A stretch of 64,000 bases of DNA, taken from the NCBI GenBank assembly GCA_030532135.1, contig JAUNLT010000004.1, positions 1 through 64,000 of the forward strand, written 5' to 3'. The notes below the pieces were generated by a model. That model was not told the DNA's origin. It saw only the letters and a program-made list of their open reading frames with translations, and did no database searches. The DNA is from Lagierella massiliensis (lineage in GTDB: Bacteria; Bacillota; Clostridia; Tissierellales; Peptoniphilaceae). Position numbers and translations under genes: made by a program. Shown piece after piece: positions 604 to 10,356 of this stretch; within the stretch, counting starts at the first letter, position 1, and the number at the start of each line of letters is the position of its first letter.

Positions 604-987
604 ATGGAGATAATAACTGTAACTAATAACAAAAAAATTGAAGATAGCTCTAATGTGGTTAGAGTATTTGGAGATTATAGAGATGTTCTAATAAAAACAA
701 GAGATTTGGTGTATTTAGGTCATGAACTTATTTCATATCCTCTAAATGCTAGTATTAAAATGTTTTTCTCTCCAATAAAGTCTATTCTTATTTCTTCTAA
801 GAGGGATTTTATTTCAGAAGATTCTGTGATGTTAATAGAAGAAAGTATTATGAAATATGATTTAACATTGGGTCAAAGAAAACCTGAATTTAGACATGAG
901 AAAGACTATGAATTACTTGATTTTGAACTTTATAAGTCCTCACTAGAGGAAGCTTCTAGGTTTAATTCTATAAGAAAGGGTGAATAG
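604..987 (+). CDS. grdX: GrdX family protein
   Basis: A small protein (127 aa) matching the GrdX family by length, by position as first gene of a reductase operon, and by general sequence character (for example RVFGDYRDVLI near the N-terminus). GrdX proteins are encoded at the head of glycine/sarcosine/betaine reductase loci; their biochemical role is not established. A GTG at 595 in the same frame is possible, but AGAGGTGA at 591-598 fits better as the ribosome binding site for ATG 604. No signal peptide or membrane segment is seen, so it is probably cytoplasmic. The stop codon lies immediately before the TTG start of grdE, so the two are almost certainly co-transcribed and perhaps translationally coupled. 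Confidence 0.8.
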   Translation: MEIITVTNNKKIEDSSNVVRVFGDYRDVLIKTRDLVYLGHELISYPLNASIKMFFSPIKSILISSKRDFISEDSVMLIEESIMKYDLTLGQRKPEFRHEKDYELLDFELYKSSLEEASRFNSIRKGE

Positions 988-988
988 G

Positions 989-2278
989 TTGAAGCTTGAA
1001 TTGCGTAAAGTAGAGATAAAAGACATCCAGTTTGGCGATGAGACAATTGTAAAAGATAAAGTATTGTATATCGCTAAAGATGATTTTATCGAAGAAATGA
1101 AAAAAGTTTCTGGAGTTAAGGATATTAAAGTTGACTTAGCTAGACCAGGAGAAAAAAAGAGGATAATTCCTGTAAAGGACGTTATCGAGCCAAGATTTAC
1201 TGTTGAAGGAACAGGAGGATTCCCTGGAGTTACTACTGATGTAGGTCCTTGTGGAGATGGTATTGTCAATGTATTAGATCAAACAGCAGTTGTAACCATT
1301 GGTGATATTGTTGGATTCCAAGAAGGTGTAATTGATATGTGGGGCGAGGGTGCTAAGTGGACTCCGTTTTCTAAAACAATGAATATAGTTGTAGACATAA
1401 CACCTATTGAGGGATTAAATCCACATGAACACGAAGAAACTTGTAGAATAGTTGGTCTTAAAGCTTCCGAATATATAGGCTCTGCTTCTAAAAATGTTGA
1501 TGAGTTTAAAGAAGTAGAAACTTTCGAAATGGGAGATAATGTTGAAGAAACAAATAAATATCCAGATCTTCCTAAAGTTGTTTACGTTGAGATGTTAATA
1601 TCTCAAGGTCTACTTCACTCTGGTTATATTTATGGTGTGGACTCTGCACATATCTTACCGACTTTAATACATCCAAATGAGGAGTTGGACAATGCAGTAA
1701 TTTCTGGTAACTGTGTAGCTGCATGTGACAAGATTACAACTTATCAACATCAAAATAATAATGTGATTCGTGAATTATATAATAAACATGGAAAAGAAAT
1801 TAACTTCCTAGGTGTAGTATTAACGCCTGAAATGACTACTTTAAATGGAAAATTTGTATCTTGTGACTATACTGCTAAACTTTGCAAGATGGTTGGAGCA
1901 AATGGTGTAATCATATCTGAAGAAGGTTATGGAAATCCCGATTCAGACTTAGTTATGATTTGTTCTAGACTTGAAAAACAAGGTATTAAAACTGTACTTA
2001 TAACTGACGAATGTTCTGGATGGGATGGAACAAGTCAGCCTCTAACTGATACTGCTAAAGAAGCTGTTGCCGTTATTTCAACAGGTAATGTAAGTCATAT
2101 AGTTGAGCTTGAAAAGGCAGATGAAGTTTTAGGAGATCCTGAAGCTATTGCTAACCTTGCTGGAGGTTGGGCAGGGGCTTATGATCCTGAAACAGGAATA
2201 ATGAAATGTGAATTGAATGCCGTAATCGGAGCTACTTCTGAGATAGGTTATCACAATGCAACCTGTAAACTATATTAG
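989..2278 (+). CDS. grdE: Glycine/sarcosine/betaine reductase component B, alpha/beta precursor (GrdE/GrdG/GrdI family)
   Basis: Proprotein of the substrate-binding component B of a Grd reductase, 429 aa, usual for the family. Family members are cleaved internally to two subunits, the new N-terminus becoming a pyruvoyl group that binds the amino acid as a Schiff base. The expected processing site is visible as SGNCVAACDK, with the cleavage Cys at residue 242 counted from TTG 989, followed by the conserved ITTYQHQNN. I chose TTG 989 over an in-frame GTG at 980 because AAAGGGTG (974-981) is correctly spaced only for the TTG. It starts one base after the grdX stop and ends nine bases before grdB. 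Whether the substrate is glycine, sarcosine or betaine cannot be read from the sequence; grdE is used in the generic sense. Confidence 0.9.
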   Translation: MKLELRKVEIKDIQFGDETIVKDKVLYIAKDDFIEEMKKVSGVKDIKVDLARPGEKKRIIPVKDVIEPRFTVEGTGGFPGVTTDVGPCGDGIVNVLDQTAVVTIGDIVGFQEGVIDMWGEGAKWTPFSKTMNIVVDITPIEGLNPHEHEETCRIVGLKASEYIGSASKNVDEFKEVETFEMGDNVEETNKYPDLPKVVYVEMLISQGLLHSGYIYGVDSAHILPTLIHPNEELDNAVISGNCVAACDKITTYQHQNNNVIRELYNKHGKEINFLGVVLTPEMTTLNGKFVSCDYTAKLCKMVGANGVIISEEGYGNPDSDLVMICSRLEKQGIKTVLITDECSGWDGTSQPLTDTAKEAVAVISTGNVSHIVELEKADEVLGDPEAIANLAGGWAGAYDPETGIMKCELNAVIGATSEIGYHNATCKLY

Positions 2279-2287
2279 GAGGAGAAG

Positions 2288-3577
2288 ATGAGTAAAAAAG
2301 TAATATATTATATAAATCAATTCTTCGGACAAATCGGTGGGGAAGAAATGGCCCATATAGCTCCTGAGTATAGAGAAGGTGGCGTAGGTCCTTCCGATGC
2401 TTTTTCAAAAAAAGCTGAAGGAATTGAATTAATTGGAACGATTATTTGTGGAGATAATTATTTTAATGAAAACAATGAAGAAACTTTAGAATTTCTTGAA
2501 AATATTTATAAAGAACACAAACCTGACTTAGTTGTTGCTGGACCAGCATTTAATGCAGGAAGATATGGTGTTGCTTGTGCAGGGGTATGTAAATTCTTCA
2601 ATGAAAAAGGAGTTACATGTGTTTCTGGTATGTATGAAGAAAATCCAGGTTTGGATGAAGCTAAGAAATATGCTTATACTATCCCAACTGGCAATTCTGC
2701 AGCATCCATGAGAAAGGCTATGCCTGAAATGGTCAAATTAGTTAATAAATTAGCTAAAGACGAAGAATTAGATCCTTCAGTTGATGGTTATTTCCCTCAA
2801 GGTCAAAGACGTACTATCTTGGTAGAAAAAATAGGATCCCAAAGAGCAATCGAAATGTTGATGAAGAGATTAAACGGCGAAGAATTTGAAACAGAACTTC
2901 CAATGCCTGTATTCGATTCTGTGGAACCTGCTGAAAATATTAAGGATCTTTCTAAAGCTACGATAGCTCTAGTAACTTCTGGCGGTATTGTACCTAATGG
3001 AAATCCTGATAAAATTCAATCTGCATCTGCACAAAAATGGGGTAGATACGATGTATCTGGTAGAGAAAACCTAGGAGAAGATTACTATACAATTCATGGA
3101 GGATATGACCCTGTATATGCTAATGAAAAGCCTGATAGAGTAGCTCCTTTAGATATGTTATTTAAACTAAAGGAAGAAGGAGTTATAGGAGATGTGTATA
3201 AATATTTTTATACTACTACAGGCACTGGAACAGCGGTTGCAAATGCAATTAGATTTGGAAAAGAAATTGGACAAGAACTTAAAGATGCAGGTGTTGATGG
3301 AGTAATATTAACGTCTACTTGAGGTACTTGTACACGTTGCGGTGCAACAATGGTAAAAGAAATTGAAAGATTAGGTATTCCGATTGTTCATATGGCTACT
3401 ATTACAACTATTTCTCAATCAGTAGGTGCAAATAGAATAGTTCCAACAGTTGCAATACCTCACCCTGTAGGAAATCCTGATTTAGGCGAAAAAGAAGACT
3501 CTTTTAGACATGAAATGGTAGAAAGAGCTGTTAATTCACTAGCTACAGAAATAAAGGAAAGCAAAATCTTTAAATAA
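2288..3577 (+). CDS. grdB: Selenoprotein subunit of reductase component B (GrdB/GrdF/GrdH family), in-frame UGA = selenocysteine
   Basis: Catalytic selenoprotein of component B. It attacks the pyruvoyl-bound substrate and passes a carboxymethyl group to selenoprotein A. The frame is interrupted only by TGA at 3320-3322 (residue 345) and continues to TAA at 3575-3577, giving 429 aa, the family length. The context TST-U-GTCTRCGA is the family's U-x2-C-x2-C site, and the sequence on both sides is conserved in style, so this is recoding and not a frameshift or pseudogene. A hairpin directly after the UGA (3336-3348) could be the SECIS element. Start ATG 2288 has AGGAGGAG upstream. Partners: grdX and grdE upstream, a symporter downstream. 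No grdA, grdC, grdD, trxA or trxB is in the window, and selA/B/C/D must be elsewhere. An automatic caller would split this gene into 344- and 75-residue pieces. Confidence 0.95.
3336..3348 (+). promoter_or_regulatory. Candidate bacterial SECIS hairpin
   Basis: GTTGC-GGT-GCAAC forms a 5-bp stem starting 13 bases after the UGA at 3320-3322, with G residues and GU in the apical loop. Bacterial SECIS elements are small stem-loops placed just downstream of the UGA with a GU in the loop that SelB binds. The position and loop fit. The assignment as SECIS is inference, because clostridial SECIS elements are poorly conserved. Confidence 0.55.
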
Positions 3578-3582
3578 ACAAT

Positions 3583-3604
3583 AAGCAGAGCCTAGGCTCT
3601 GCTT
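3583..3604 (+). terminator. Hairpin after grdB, weak terminator or processing site
   Basis: A perfect palindrome (AAGCAGAGCCT then AGGCTCTGCTT) lies six bases after the grdB stop. Only a short GAGTTT follows, so it may be an attenuating or RNA-stabilising hairpin that sets the level of the downstream transporter rather than a full terminator. Confidence 0.5.
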
Positions 3605-3660: not shown

Positions 3661-5001
3661 ATGAGTAATGAGAGTAGAAGCAGTTGGAATAGTAGATTTG
3701 GTTATATTATGGCTGCCGCGGGTTTCTCCATAGGACTAGGTAATATTTGGAGATTTCCATATCTTGTTGGTACGAATGGTGGTGGAGCGTTTGTTCTATT
3801 ATATATTATAATCTGTATTTTAATAGGAATTCCTCTATTTTATATGGAGGTAACTTTAGGTAGAAAAGCAAAAGCAAGTCCTATTTTAGGCATGAGAAAA
3901 TTAACTAAAAAAGGAAGTCCATGGGTAAGTTTTGGATGGCTTGGAGTTTTAAGTGCTTTTTTTATTCTTACCTACTACATTCAAATTATGGGATGGATTT
4001 TAGCTTATTTAATTAAAATGGTTACAGGGGAAATGAAAGGATTTGCTCCAGAACAATATGTAGATAAATTTAACGAATTGTTACTTAATCCTGGAGCATT
4101 AGTAATATATACTTTAATATGTGTAGTAATAATAGCTATTATATCAGCAAAGGATTTAAGCTCTGGACTTGAAAGAGCGTGTTCAGTAATGATGCCGGCA
4201 CTATTTATAATGTTGATAATTGTGGCTATAAGATCTATTACATTACCTGGAGCAATGGAGGGTGTTAAGTGGTATCTGAATGTAGATTTTTCGCTTATAA
4301 CACCAAAGACTTTTTTAATAGCCTTAGGACAATGCTTTTTTTCTGTTGGAATAGCTAGTGGAGGGGCTTTTGTATACGGTTCATATTTAAAGAAAGATTC
4401 TAATATACCATCCGATGGGCTTATGGTAATAGGGTTTGATACTCTTGCTGCTTTAATAGCAGGATTTGCAATATTTCCAGCTGTTTTTGCACTAGGGTTA
4501 CAACCTGATTCTGGATCAAATTTACTATTTATAACCATGAGTAATGTTTTTATGAATATGCCTTTTGGATCAGTATTTGGAGTATTGTTTTTCTTACTAA
4601 TGTTCTTTGCTGCTTTATCATCAGCATTAGGATATTTAGAACCAGTGAGTTCTTCTTTTAGCGAATTGTTAAATACATCAAGAGCAAAAGGAGTTATATA
4701 TGCATTAACAACTATATTTTTAGTTGGACTATTTACTATTTTTGGACATAATATATTGAATAATGTAAAAATTACTGGAAGAAATCTATTTGATTTCGCA
4801 GATTTTCTATCTGGTAATATTCTTATGCCTCTTGGTGCTATTGTGCTTATACTATATACATTATTTAAGTGGAAATTTGAGAACTTCAAAAATGATATAG
4901 ATGAAGGCGCCACATCTTTTAAACTACCTAGAGCAATAAAATATATTGCTTATGTACTTCCTATAATTTTAATTATAATATTTGTTACAGGATTAATTTA
5001 A
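3661..5001 (+). CDS. Sodium:neurotransmitter symporter (SNF/NSS, LeuT-like) family transporter
   Basis: Na+-coupled amino acid or amine importer in the cytoplasmic membrane, 446 aa with 11-12 predicted hydrophobic segments. The family hallmark around TM1 is visible at residues 25-34 (GLGNIWRFPY), followed by VGTNGGGAF. This is the unwound TM1 region that binds Na+ and substrate in LeuT. An upstream TTG (3631) lacks a ribosome binding site, while ATG 3661 has AAGGAGGAC. It follows grdB by 83 bases on the same strand, so it probably imports the substrate reduced by the Grd system (glycine or an N-methylated glycine; inference). It ends at a strong terminator. Confidence 0.9.
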   Translation: MSNESRSSWNSRFGYIMAAAGFSIGLGNIWRFPYLVGTNGGGAFVLLYIIICILIGIPLFYMEVTLGRKAKASPILGMRKLTKKGSPWVSFGWLGVLSAFFILTYYIQIMGWILAYLIKMVTGEMKGFAPEQYVDKFNELLLNPGALVIYTLICVVIIAIISAKDLSSGLERACSVMMPALFIMLIIVAIRSITLPGAMEGVKWYLNVDFSLITPKTFLIALGQCFFSVGIASGGAFVYGSYLKKDSNIPSDGLMVIGFDTLAALIAGFAIFPAVFALGLQPDSGSNLLFITMSNVFMNMPFGSVFGVLFFLLMFFAALSSALGYLEPVSSSFSELLNTSRAKGVIYALTTIFLVGLFTIFGHNILNNVKITGRNLFDFADFLSGNILMPLGAIVLILYTLFKWKFENFKNDIDEGATSFKLPRAIKYIAYVLPIILIIIFVTGLI

Positions 5002-5174: not shown

Positions 5175-5888
5175 ATGAGGTTTTGTAAAATCATGATCTG
5201 GAATGAAGATATTTTATCCAGGCCTTTGTTCAAGAATATATCCACTGAGTCTTTAGCTAAGCTTTTAAGAACTAATTCCAAAAGAAAACATTATGAATCT
5301 AATGAGGTCATTTTTAGAAAAGGCGAAAATATAAAGTACTTTTGCATTATAGAAAGAGGATTGTTAAAAACTTCTGAATACACAAATAGGGGGAAGGAAA
5401 TGAGTTCTTCTTATTTTTATTATGAAAAAAACTTAGGTACAGATTACCCATTTGCAATCGATGCATTTCCATTTTATTTAATTTATGGAGGCACAGGCAA
5501 ACATACTATGGATATATATGCTGTAAAAAGTACAACTCTTATTAAAATACCTATTGAGGAATTCAAACCTATTATAGAATCCGATTCTATTTTTATGTTA
5601 AACGTCTTAAATTTTGTATCCCAATTTGCATGTTATGGTCAAATAATGCTAAGAGCTGTTGAATATCGAAGAATTGAAGAAAGACTAGCATATTGGATGT
5701 TGAATGTGAACGAATCTAGAAAAAATATTTATATACCTTATTCTCAAGAAGTATTAGCTGAGATGCTTCATGTAAATAGAAGTAGTTTAAATCAGGAACT
5801 TGGTAGGTTAAGGGAGCAAGGACTAATTGATATTTATAAAAGAAAAATAACAATAAAAAACTTGGACTATTTTATAGACTTAATATAG
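5175..5888 (+). CDS. Crp/Fnr family transcriptional regulator
   Basis: Cytoplasmic DNA-binding regulator of about 237 aa. The N-terminal half is a cyclic-nucleotide-binding-like beta-barrel (for example VIFRKGENIKYFCIIERGLL). The C-terminal part is a winged helix-turn-helix (YSQEVLAEMLHVNRSSLNQE then LGRLREQGLI). No N-terminal four-Cys cluster is seen, so it is not a classical Fe-S FNR. Start is uncertain: ATG 5175 has no clear ribosome binding site, while ATG 5193 has GAGG at 5177-5180 but with a long spacing. It is a single-gene unit between the grd operon terminator and the phosphate transporter and could control either (inference). A 12-bp palindrome, AATATCGATATT at 5126-5137, in its leader is a candidate autoregulatory site. 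Confidence 0.88.
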   Translation: MRFCKIMIWNEDILSRPLFKNISTESLAKLLRTNSKRKHYESNEVIFRKGENIKYFCIIERGLLKTSEYTNRGKEMSSSYFYYEKNLGTDYPFAIDAFPFYLIYGGTGKHTMDIYAVKSTTLIKIPIEEFKPIIESDSIFMLNVLNFVSQFACYGQIMLRAVEYRRIEERLAYWMLNVNESRKNIYIPYSQEVLAEMLHVNRSSLNQELGRLREQGLIDIYKRKITIKNLDYFIDLI

Positions 5889-9692: not shown

Positions 9693-9717
9693 AATTGTAA
9701 TTATGCTGTGCTATAAT
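9689..9717 (+). promoter_or_regulatory. Promoter of rpmE
   Basis: TTGAAA (9689-9694), 17-base spacer, TATAAT (9712-9717): near-perfect sigma-A promoter just upstream of rpmE. It overlaps the end of rho. Confidence 0.8.
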
Positions 9718-9761
9718 TATATAGCTAAATGTTTAATTGGTTTTGAAAGAGGTGAAAAATA

Positions 9762-9965
9762 ATGAAGGAAGGAATTCATCCAGAATATCACGAAGCTACT
9801 GTAACATGTACTACATGTGGCAATACTTTTACAACAGGATCAACTAAAGAAGAAATTAAAGTTGAAGTTTGCTCTAACTGTCATCCATTCTACACAGGCC
9901 GTCAAAGATCTGCTGAACGTGGTGGTAGAGTTGAGAAGTTTAAAGAAAAATACAATATTAAATAA
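9762..9965 (+). CDS. rpmE: 50S ribosomal protein L31, zinc-binding type
   Basis: 67-residue large-subunit ribosomal protein. It begins [16 protein letters not shown] and carries the two Cys pairs of the zinc-containing (C+) form: C-TTC around residues 16-19 and CSNC around 37-40. Family C+ L31 proteins bind Zn and are replaced by Zn-free paralogues under Zn limitation; no paralogue is in the window. GAAAGAGGTGAAA precedes the ATG. It has its own promoter and a terminator, so it is probably a single-gene transcript. Confidence 0.96.
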
Positions 9966-9969
9966 TTTA

Positions 9970-10000
9970 AAAAGGGCAGACAAAAAGGTTCTGCCTTTTT
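9970..10000 (+). terminator. Terminator of rpmE
   Basis: AAAAGGGCAGA (9970-9980) pairs with TCTGCCTTTTT (9990-10000), ending in a T tract. Confidence 0.85.
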
Positions 10001-10356
10001 GATTTTTAAGAAAGATTAAAAACAGCTTAGAATATACTATAAAACATATAAGAATTTTCAAAATTATTTCAATTCATATATGTTAATAATAGTAGATGTA
10101 TAAATTAAATTTAAGGCTGATAAAATATATTTATTAAAAGATTATCTTTAACACAAATTAATTAAATAAAATGACTATACTTAAATTATATAATTAATTT
10201 TATATATTTAAATATATTTATTGGTTTGTGAATTAAATGCTTTCTTGAAAAATTTAAAAATATTAAAAAATTATGGAAAATTCTTGTTATAACTGTGAAT
10301 AGCTTAAACTTTTATTTATCAGAACAAGATTTAAATTTTGCTATGGGGATTTTAAA
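10001..10356 (+). other. AT-rich intergenic region before prmC
   Basis: About 350 bases of extreme AT content with no ORF, no RNA gene consensus and no clear hairpin that I can support. It must contain the prmC promoter. A weak TTGTTA/TATAAC pair near 10284 is too closely spaced to be called. Confidence 0.3.

Follow-up and report, generated by a model that had tools for sequence, protein, structure and literature searches.

Does the TGA codon that interrupts a glycine reductase-like gene near the start of this contig end the protein or encode selenocysteine (Sec), and on which substrate would the full-length product act? We followed the gene within the window, meaning the whole stretch of 64,000 nucleotides analysed here, and through the rest of its assembly and related loci. 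With a probability of about 0.72, we read it as encoding GrdF, the Sec-containing catalytic subunit of component B, most likely of a sarcosine reductase, paired with the GrdG encoded upstream (Table 1). It is an established, textbook kind of selenoprotein, and the question of its substrate lends it modest extra interest.

Table 1. Features at the grdF-like locus of the window.
Feature	Position	Strand	Remark
grdX, small companion gene of grd operons	604..987	+	ORF listed from GTG 595
grdG-like, proprotein alpha subunit of component B	980..2278	+	SGNC-VAACDK motif; start GTG 980 or TTG 989
grdF-like, predicted Sec-containing beta subunit of component B, 429 residues	2288..3577	+	AGGAGG just 5'
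UGA codon, candidate selenocysteine, residue 345 in U-x2-C-x2-C	3320..3322	+	TGA in 80/80 motif-bearing rows
Candidate SECIS hairpin GUUGC-GGU-GCAAC	3336..3348	+	stem 3336-3340 / 3344-3348, loop GGU 3341-3343
SNF-family Na+-dependent transporter	3661..5001	+	directly behind grdF
Crp/Fnr-like regulator	5175..5888	+	similar genes near grdF in several relatives

The initial annotation described a continuous 429-codon frame split by one TGA, and translation indeed gives a single in-frame TGA, at residue 345, in a frame that starts 9 bases past the stop of the preceding gene. The surrounding residues read TST-U-GTCTRCGA (U345-G-T-C-T-R-C), and their assignment to the U-x2-C-x2-C active site of a GrdB-type selenoprotein is borne out by a match of the read-through protein to TIGR01918 that spans the codon (592.2 bits, cut-off 65.45, model positions 1-431 of 431). 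With PF07355 (Pfam GRDB) scoring 505.1 bits against 22, curated cut-offs are passed for both models and the UxxCxxC motif carries the in-frame UGA, which places the product among the Grd-type component B selenoproteins. Homologues were collected by a protein motif that permits either U or C at the Sec site, and TGA occupies this site in 69 of 69 and 80 of 80 rows (two overlapping sets with 79 distinct sequences). Cys-for-Sec forms, wanted as a control set, were absent from the 80 rows, in agreement with an earlier statement that Cys homologues of GrdB are very few or lacking in organisms that contain Sec (PMC1794560). The UGA could be an ordinary stop in a truncated gene, or the TGA a sequencing error; both are opposed by the recurrence of TGA at the same site in all 80 motif-bearing rows from many assemblies and by the 84 conserved residues that the read-through translation holds beyond it.

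Gene callers that treat UGA as a stop cut the product at residue 344, and a 344-aa ORF does appear in the standard-code list. The initial expectation of two false genes holds to that extent; the downstream ORF (ATG 3350, 75 aa) has no visible ribosome site, and at least one public record, P. acidaminophilum grdF, is annotated through the UGA. When the 64-kb window was scanned for frames with a single TGA (at least 20 codons before it and at least 30 after, less than 25% overlap by other ORFs of at least 90 codons), the grdF-like gene was returned together with one short candidate of 73+41 codons at 9717-10061 on the minus strand. Separately, a perfect 22-base inverted repeat lies at 3583-3604, just past the grdF stop, and is listed as terminator-like on the minus strand, an equal number of such sites being expected by chance.

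Reading UGA as Sec requires a decoding system, which the initial annotation had claimed and proposed to seek as selA, selB, selC and selD. The assembly (G000) is a 65% complete draft of 1.23 Mb in 23 contigs, and three of the four were found grouped on its contig C16: tRNA-Sec at C16:102156-102248 (69.6 bits, gathering score 47; called at the same site by ARAGORN as tRNA-SeC with anticodon tca), SelB (363.4 bits, cut-off 242.25) and SelA (605 bits, cut-off 267.9). The claim of a Sec decoding system is thus upheld. For selD, the 65%-complete draft gave no more than a weak match under the cut-off, though the gene is present in both congeners (381 and 380 bits) with an in-frame TGA in each. The missing selD would suit an ordinary stop or an error, against which stand tRNA-Sec, SelA and SelB. 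On C16 (L014:5322-16402, with tRNA-Sec just before), selC, selB and selA on one strand adjoin a glycine reductase operon on the other. This operon is ordered grdX-trxB-grdE-grdA-grdB-grdC-grdD, its grdA and grdB have one TGA each, and its GrdB passes the glycine model (805.8 bits vs 602.2); the identities of SelA, GrdC, GrdD, TrxB and GrdX on this contig are backed by family scoring.

A GTTGC-GGT-GCAAC hairpin had been noted in the next 14-26 bases, and its position and stem stand: it extends from +14 to +26 after the UGA, with gaps of 13 nt to the stem and 18 nt to the loop. The section of PMC13188914 that gives rules for bacterial SECIS elements asks for a loop of 3-9 nt, a stem of 4-16 bp, a G in the first two loop positions, a UGA-loop distance of 16-37 nt and a minimum free energy of -7.5 kcal/mol or lower. 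The hairpin conforms in loop (3-nt GGU), stem (5 bp), G and spacing (18 nt), and misses the energy rule in that section of PMC13188914 when placed in its 38-46 nt context (-5.8 to -6.7 kcal/mol). We therefore call it SECIS-like under that section's rules, and let the selenoprotein status rest on the other evidence of the gene. The hairpin alone folds at -3.2 kcal/mol and, with two flanking bases on each side, at -4.7 with a stem probability near 1; this probability is 0.76 in 25 nt and about 0.35-0.42 in 38-46 nt, where a shifted stem competes, and 60 nt reach -9.2 kcal/mol with the shifted stem. The 44-nt region (-6.7 kcal/mol, z +0.54) was equalled by 137 of 200 shuffles, and the other two stretches folded by 137 and 112 of 200. 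Folding energy was dropped as proof of a SECIS on account of these 137 equally good shuffles, and its unremarkable value would also suit an ordinary stop or a sequencing error.

As the folding is not significant, codon conservation was taken as the evidence for the hairpin. The 78 homologous genes compared (of 80 rows, leaving out one T. creatinophila duplicate and one fragment) include rows from Treponema, an Enterococcus plasmid and a Photobacterium plasmid. Arg is CGT and Ala is GCA in all 78 and Cys is TGC in 76, while the third base is looser in the Gly codon of the loop (GGT in 65) and free in the Thr codon outside the stem (ACG in 47, ACA in 28). Averaged over the five hairpin codons, the top-codon share is 0.88, compared with 0.60 for 91 other degenerate columns that are conserved (Mann-Whitney p 2e-4, with kinship ignored). 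As background, CGT makes up 2% of the Arg codons and TGC 15% of the Cys codons in 30 long ORFs of the window. Among 20,000 synonymous recodings, a Watson-Crick stem of at least 5 pairs in an allowed place arose 38 times, and in about half once G-U pairs were permitted. The two paralogues of this genome, in the window and on C16, are 56% identical as proteins, yet the 32 bases past their UGA codons are identical. Frozen codons of this kind are what selection on an RNA element within a coding region would leave, and we regard them as strong evidence for the hairpin and the folding as weak. They also oppose the ordinary stop or sequencing error, which we consider very improbable. The UGA is almost certainly read as Sec, given the homology through it, the UxxCxxC motif, the frozen hairpin codons and the presence of selA, selB and tRNA-Sec in the same assembly.

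Family models leave the substrate undecided. The beta subunit scores highest with the sarcosine GrdF model NF040794 (572.8 bits, cut-off 800), followed by the glycine GrdB model TIGR01917 (550.3, cut-off 602.2) and the betaine GrdH model NF040795 (532.7, cut-off 775), reaching none of the three cut-offs. The grdG-like product, whose SGNCVAACDK motif is intact, matches PF09338 with 596.4 bits (cut-off 22.2) and also stays below the curated sarcosine GrdG cut-off (480.8 of 780). We take its SGNC motif to be the predicted cleavage and pyruvoyl site, by work on GrdE. The copy of the same clade in T. creatinophila, a probable sarcosine reductase, has 607.1 bits with NF040794 (cut-off 800) and is outscored there by the glycine GrdB of C16 (727.8), so that below its cut-off this model ranks the window clade uselessly. 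Solved structures gave nine matches to the beta subunit, all designed or repeat proteins and judged spurious, and none to GrdG. That no substrate-specific NCBIfam cut-off is reached would also fit a Sec-containing component B of this type that acts mainly on something else, whether betaine, creatine, a different N-substituted glycine, or glycine as a second isoenzyme; we consider this reading unlikely though well short of negligible. Betaine in particular is disfavoured, its model giving the lowest score and the annotated GrdH of E. gilvus lying elsewhere in the tree.

A tree of 79 rows (78 different) puts the window protein in a clade of 49 with support 100/100 and GrdB of glycine operons on the other side. 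We fetched the loci of the clade matches (51, representing 49 different places, two of them twice) and of a hand-picked set of glycine-type matches. All 51 clade loci have grdG with grdF; grdX is found in 49, grdA in nine, and grdC or grdD in none. Beside the window gene itself, there is no grdA, grdC or grdD. The glycine-type loci have trxB, grdE, grdA, grdC and grdD with grdB in 15 of 15, and other glycine-side copies vary: L165 and L166 (from G182 and G181) read grdX-grdE-grdB and then trxB, with no grdA between. The full separate glycine operon in the same genome, together with the lack of grdC and grdD in the clade loci, argues against glycine as the alternative substrate, and the window gene is probably not a glycine reductase. 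Outside Bacillota, a Photobacterium plasmid (L129:18-6296) has grdC and grdD close to a grdE-grdB-like pair.

An SNF transporter or a membrane protein that we take to be YkvI-like (no Pfam or NCBIfam match) accompanies 44 of the 51 clade loci; it is lacking in L020, L024, L071, L083, L084, L102 and L112, and in L071, L102 and L112 the contig edge lies just behind or inside grdF. The SNF-family transporter of the window is possibly the importer of the reductase substrate. Between the contig end and grdX, a stretch of 603 bases, the window has no significant similarity to the loci of the congeners.

Genomic context points to sarcosine. The two congeners (Lagierella massiliensis and Mediannikoviicoccus vaginalis) each have an amidase and a D-hydantoinase gene directly before grdX-G-F. 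The best solved (PDB) match of the M. vaginalis amidase is N-carbamoylsarcosine amidohydrolase 1nba (3.5e-60); the congener amidase reaches no NCBIfam cut-off and belongs to the isochorismatase family of Pfam, and the D-hydantoinase scores 493 bits with TIGR02033 (cut-off 393). The amidase lies inside the fetched stretch in nine of the 51 clade loci. Across the order (249 genomes), it was found in 19 genomes (E up to 1e-20) and the clade, among the matches listed, in 43. These 43 were counted by hand as 42 at 60-100% identity and one 68% fragment, leaving out two 60% matches in glycine operons (G205; G193:C141). Among the matches listed, the clade is present in 16 of the 19 amidase genomes vs 27 of the 230 amidase-less ones (Fisher p 2.8e-11, kinship ignored), and at genus level in 11 of 12 vs 17 of 80 genera (p 3.9e-6, kinship again ignored), with genus g58 credited with both traits, which occur there in different genomes. 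This association favours sarcosine over the other substrates, which in turn draw support from the 27 of 43 clade genomes without an amidase match among the matches listed. In the 65%-complete genome of the window, the creatinine genes, namely the amidase and its hydantoinase, were not found.

Three amidase genomes depart from the pattern. In G181, the amidase lies about 2 kb from a GrdG/GrdF pair of the P. acidaminophilum type (L157:6084-11765), a neighbourhood that ties this type of GrdF to sarcosine independently. In G182, a GrdF of the same type, passing the curated GrdF cut-off (853.8 of 800), is on a different contig from the amidase, and G032 has the amidase with just one weak partial reductase match. 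The amidase of a window congener (L017) is 97% identical to that of G146 (L122:4001-6235) and 93% to that of G032 (L057), and the reductase subunit of G146 is only 64% identical to that of the window. Nearly identical amidases thus accompany distant or weakly matching reductases, which suggests that the hydantoinase-amidase pair is transferred between genera independently of the reductase.

Creatinine supports growth of T. creatinophila, whose genome paper lists components of sarcosine reductase, cites their purification and also reports an N-carbamoylsarcosine amidase with a clustered D-hydantoinase-like gene (PMC5364220). The same route has been reported for Clostridium sp. FS41, a second N-methylhydantoin degrader (PMC4417704). 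Two B selenoproteins were found in the 99% complete genome of T. creatinophila: the first belongs to a glycine operon (L156) and the second, the only B subunit found outside that operon, to the window clade (L022). By elimination, sarcosine reduction then falls to the window-clade copy, unless the glycine enzyme has both activities. P. acidaminophilum, whose megaplasmid was covered by our search within the plasmid collection, also uses sarcosine, and two sarcosine reductase clusters are mentioned for it (PMC4056300). However, its annotated GrdF and the relative that passes the curated cut-off group with glycine GrdB outside the window clade, which leaves two origins of sarcosine reductase or an error in one of the two assignments; this position in the tree also lends some weight to another substrate for the window clade. 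A single clade for all sarcosine reductases was tried and rejected: uniting the window clade with four P. acidaminophilum-type GrdF rows costs 28.2 log-likelihood units, with a marginal p-AU of 0.039 for a grouping picked after seeing the tree. Creatine reduction as an activity is compatible with the genomics. On balance, we consider sarcosine likely to be the main substrate, judging from genomic context, and the earlier label GrdB-type is correct for the family, with sarcosine (GrdF) and not glycine as the likeliest substrate.

In glycine reductase, component B binds the substrate, its Sec takes the carboxymethyl group and the amine is released, after which component A carries the group and component C makes acetyl phosphate. 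By analogy, cleavage of GrdG would create a pyruvoyl group to which the substrate amine is bound, and the selenolate of Sec345 would take the carboxymethyl group with release of methylamine. The group would then be passed to a shared component A (GrdA), and a shared component C (GrdC, GrdD) would make acetyl phosphate with electrons from thioredoxin. Because the window cluster encodes only B, the glycine-type operon of C16 would supply components A and C. At the level of translation, the conserved hairpin may direct SelB with Sec-tRNA to the UGA. The catalytic steps proposed here follow the general biochemistry of glycine reductase and its summary in PMC13188914.

A wider proposal, to which we give even odds, is that the window clade is a second, separate sarcosine reductase lineage missed by the curated GrdF model. 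In human-associated Peptoniphilaceae, it would complete a fermentative route from N-methylhydantoin, and hence creatinine, to acetyl phosphate and methylamine, of which the hydantoinase-amidase part moves between genera independently of the reductase. In the open literature as far as it was consulted, with subscription journals largely outside it, we met neither a proposal that this clade forms a second lineage of sarcosine reductase nor an account of creatinine breakdown in the genus. If the sarcosine assignment is true, a large clade now placed only in the mixed 'glycine/betaine/sarcosine/D-proline' family of NCBIfam would acquire a function. Human-associated anaerobes, among them the vaginal isolate M. 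vaginalis, would then be candidate degraders of a human waste product, releasing methylamine.

Among known systems, the probable sarcosine reductase B (GrdG/GrdF) of T. creatinophila, a gene tied to the purified enzyme by elimination, is of the same clade as the window pair, with a beta subunit 65% identical, UGA at the same codon and the same grdX-grdG-grdF order; it differs in having grdA in front and a YkvI-like membrane protein behind, where the window has its SNF transporter. GrdG/GrdF of P. acidaminophilum (NF040793/NF040794) shares family, motif and hairpin and provides the best substrate-specific model for the window, but its GrdF is 52% identical, groups with glycine GrdB and is represented by a model whose cut-off of 800 bits the window protein, at 572.8, does not reach. 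Glycine GrdB (TIGR01917), represented by the C16 copy, shares 56% identity and the same 32 bases past the UGA, whereas the window protein stays below the glycine cut-off that the C16 copy passes and has no adjacent grdA, grdC or grdD. The betaine reductase GrdH (NF040795) is alike in family and motif and unlike in score, the window protein obtaining 532.7 of 775 bits, and in the place of its annotated example elsewhere in the tree.
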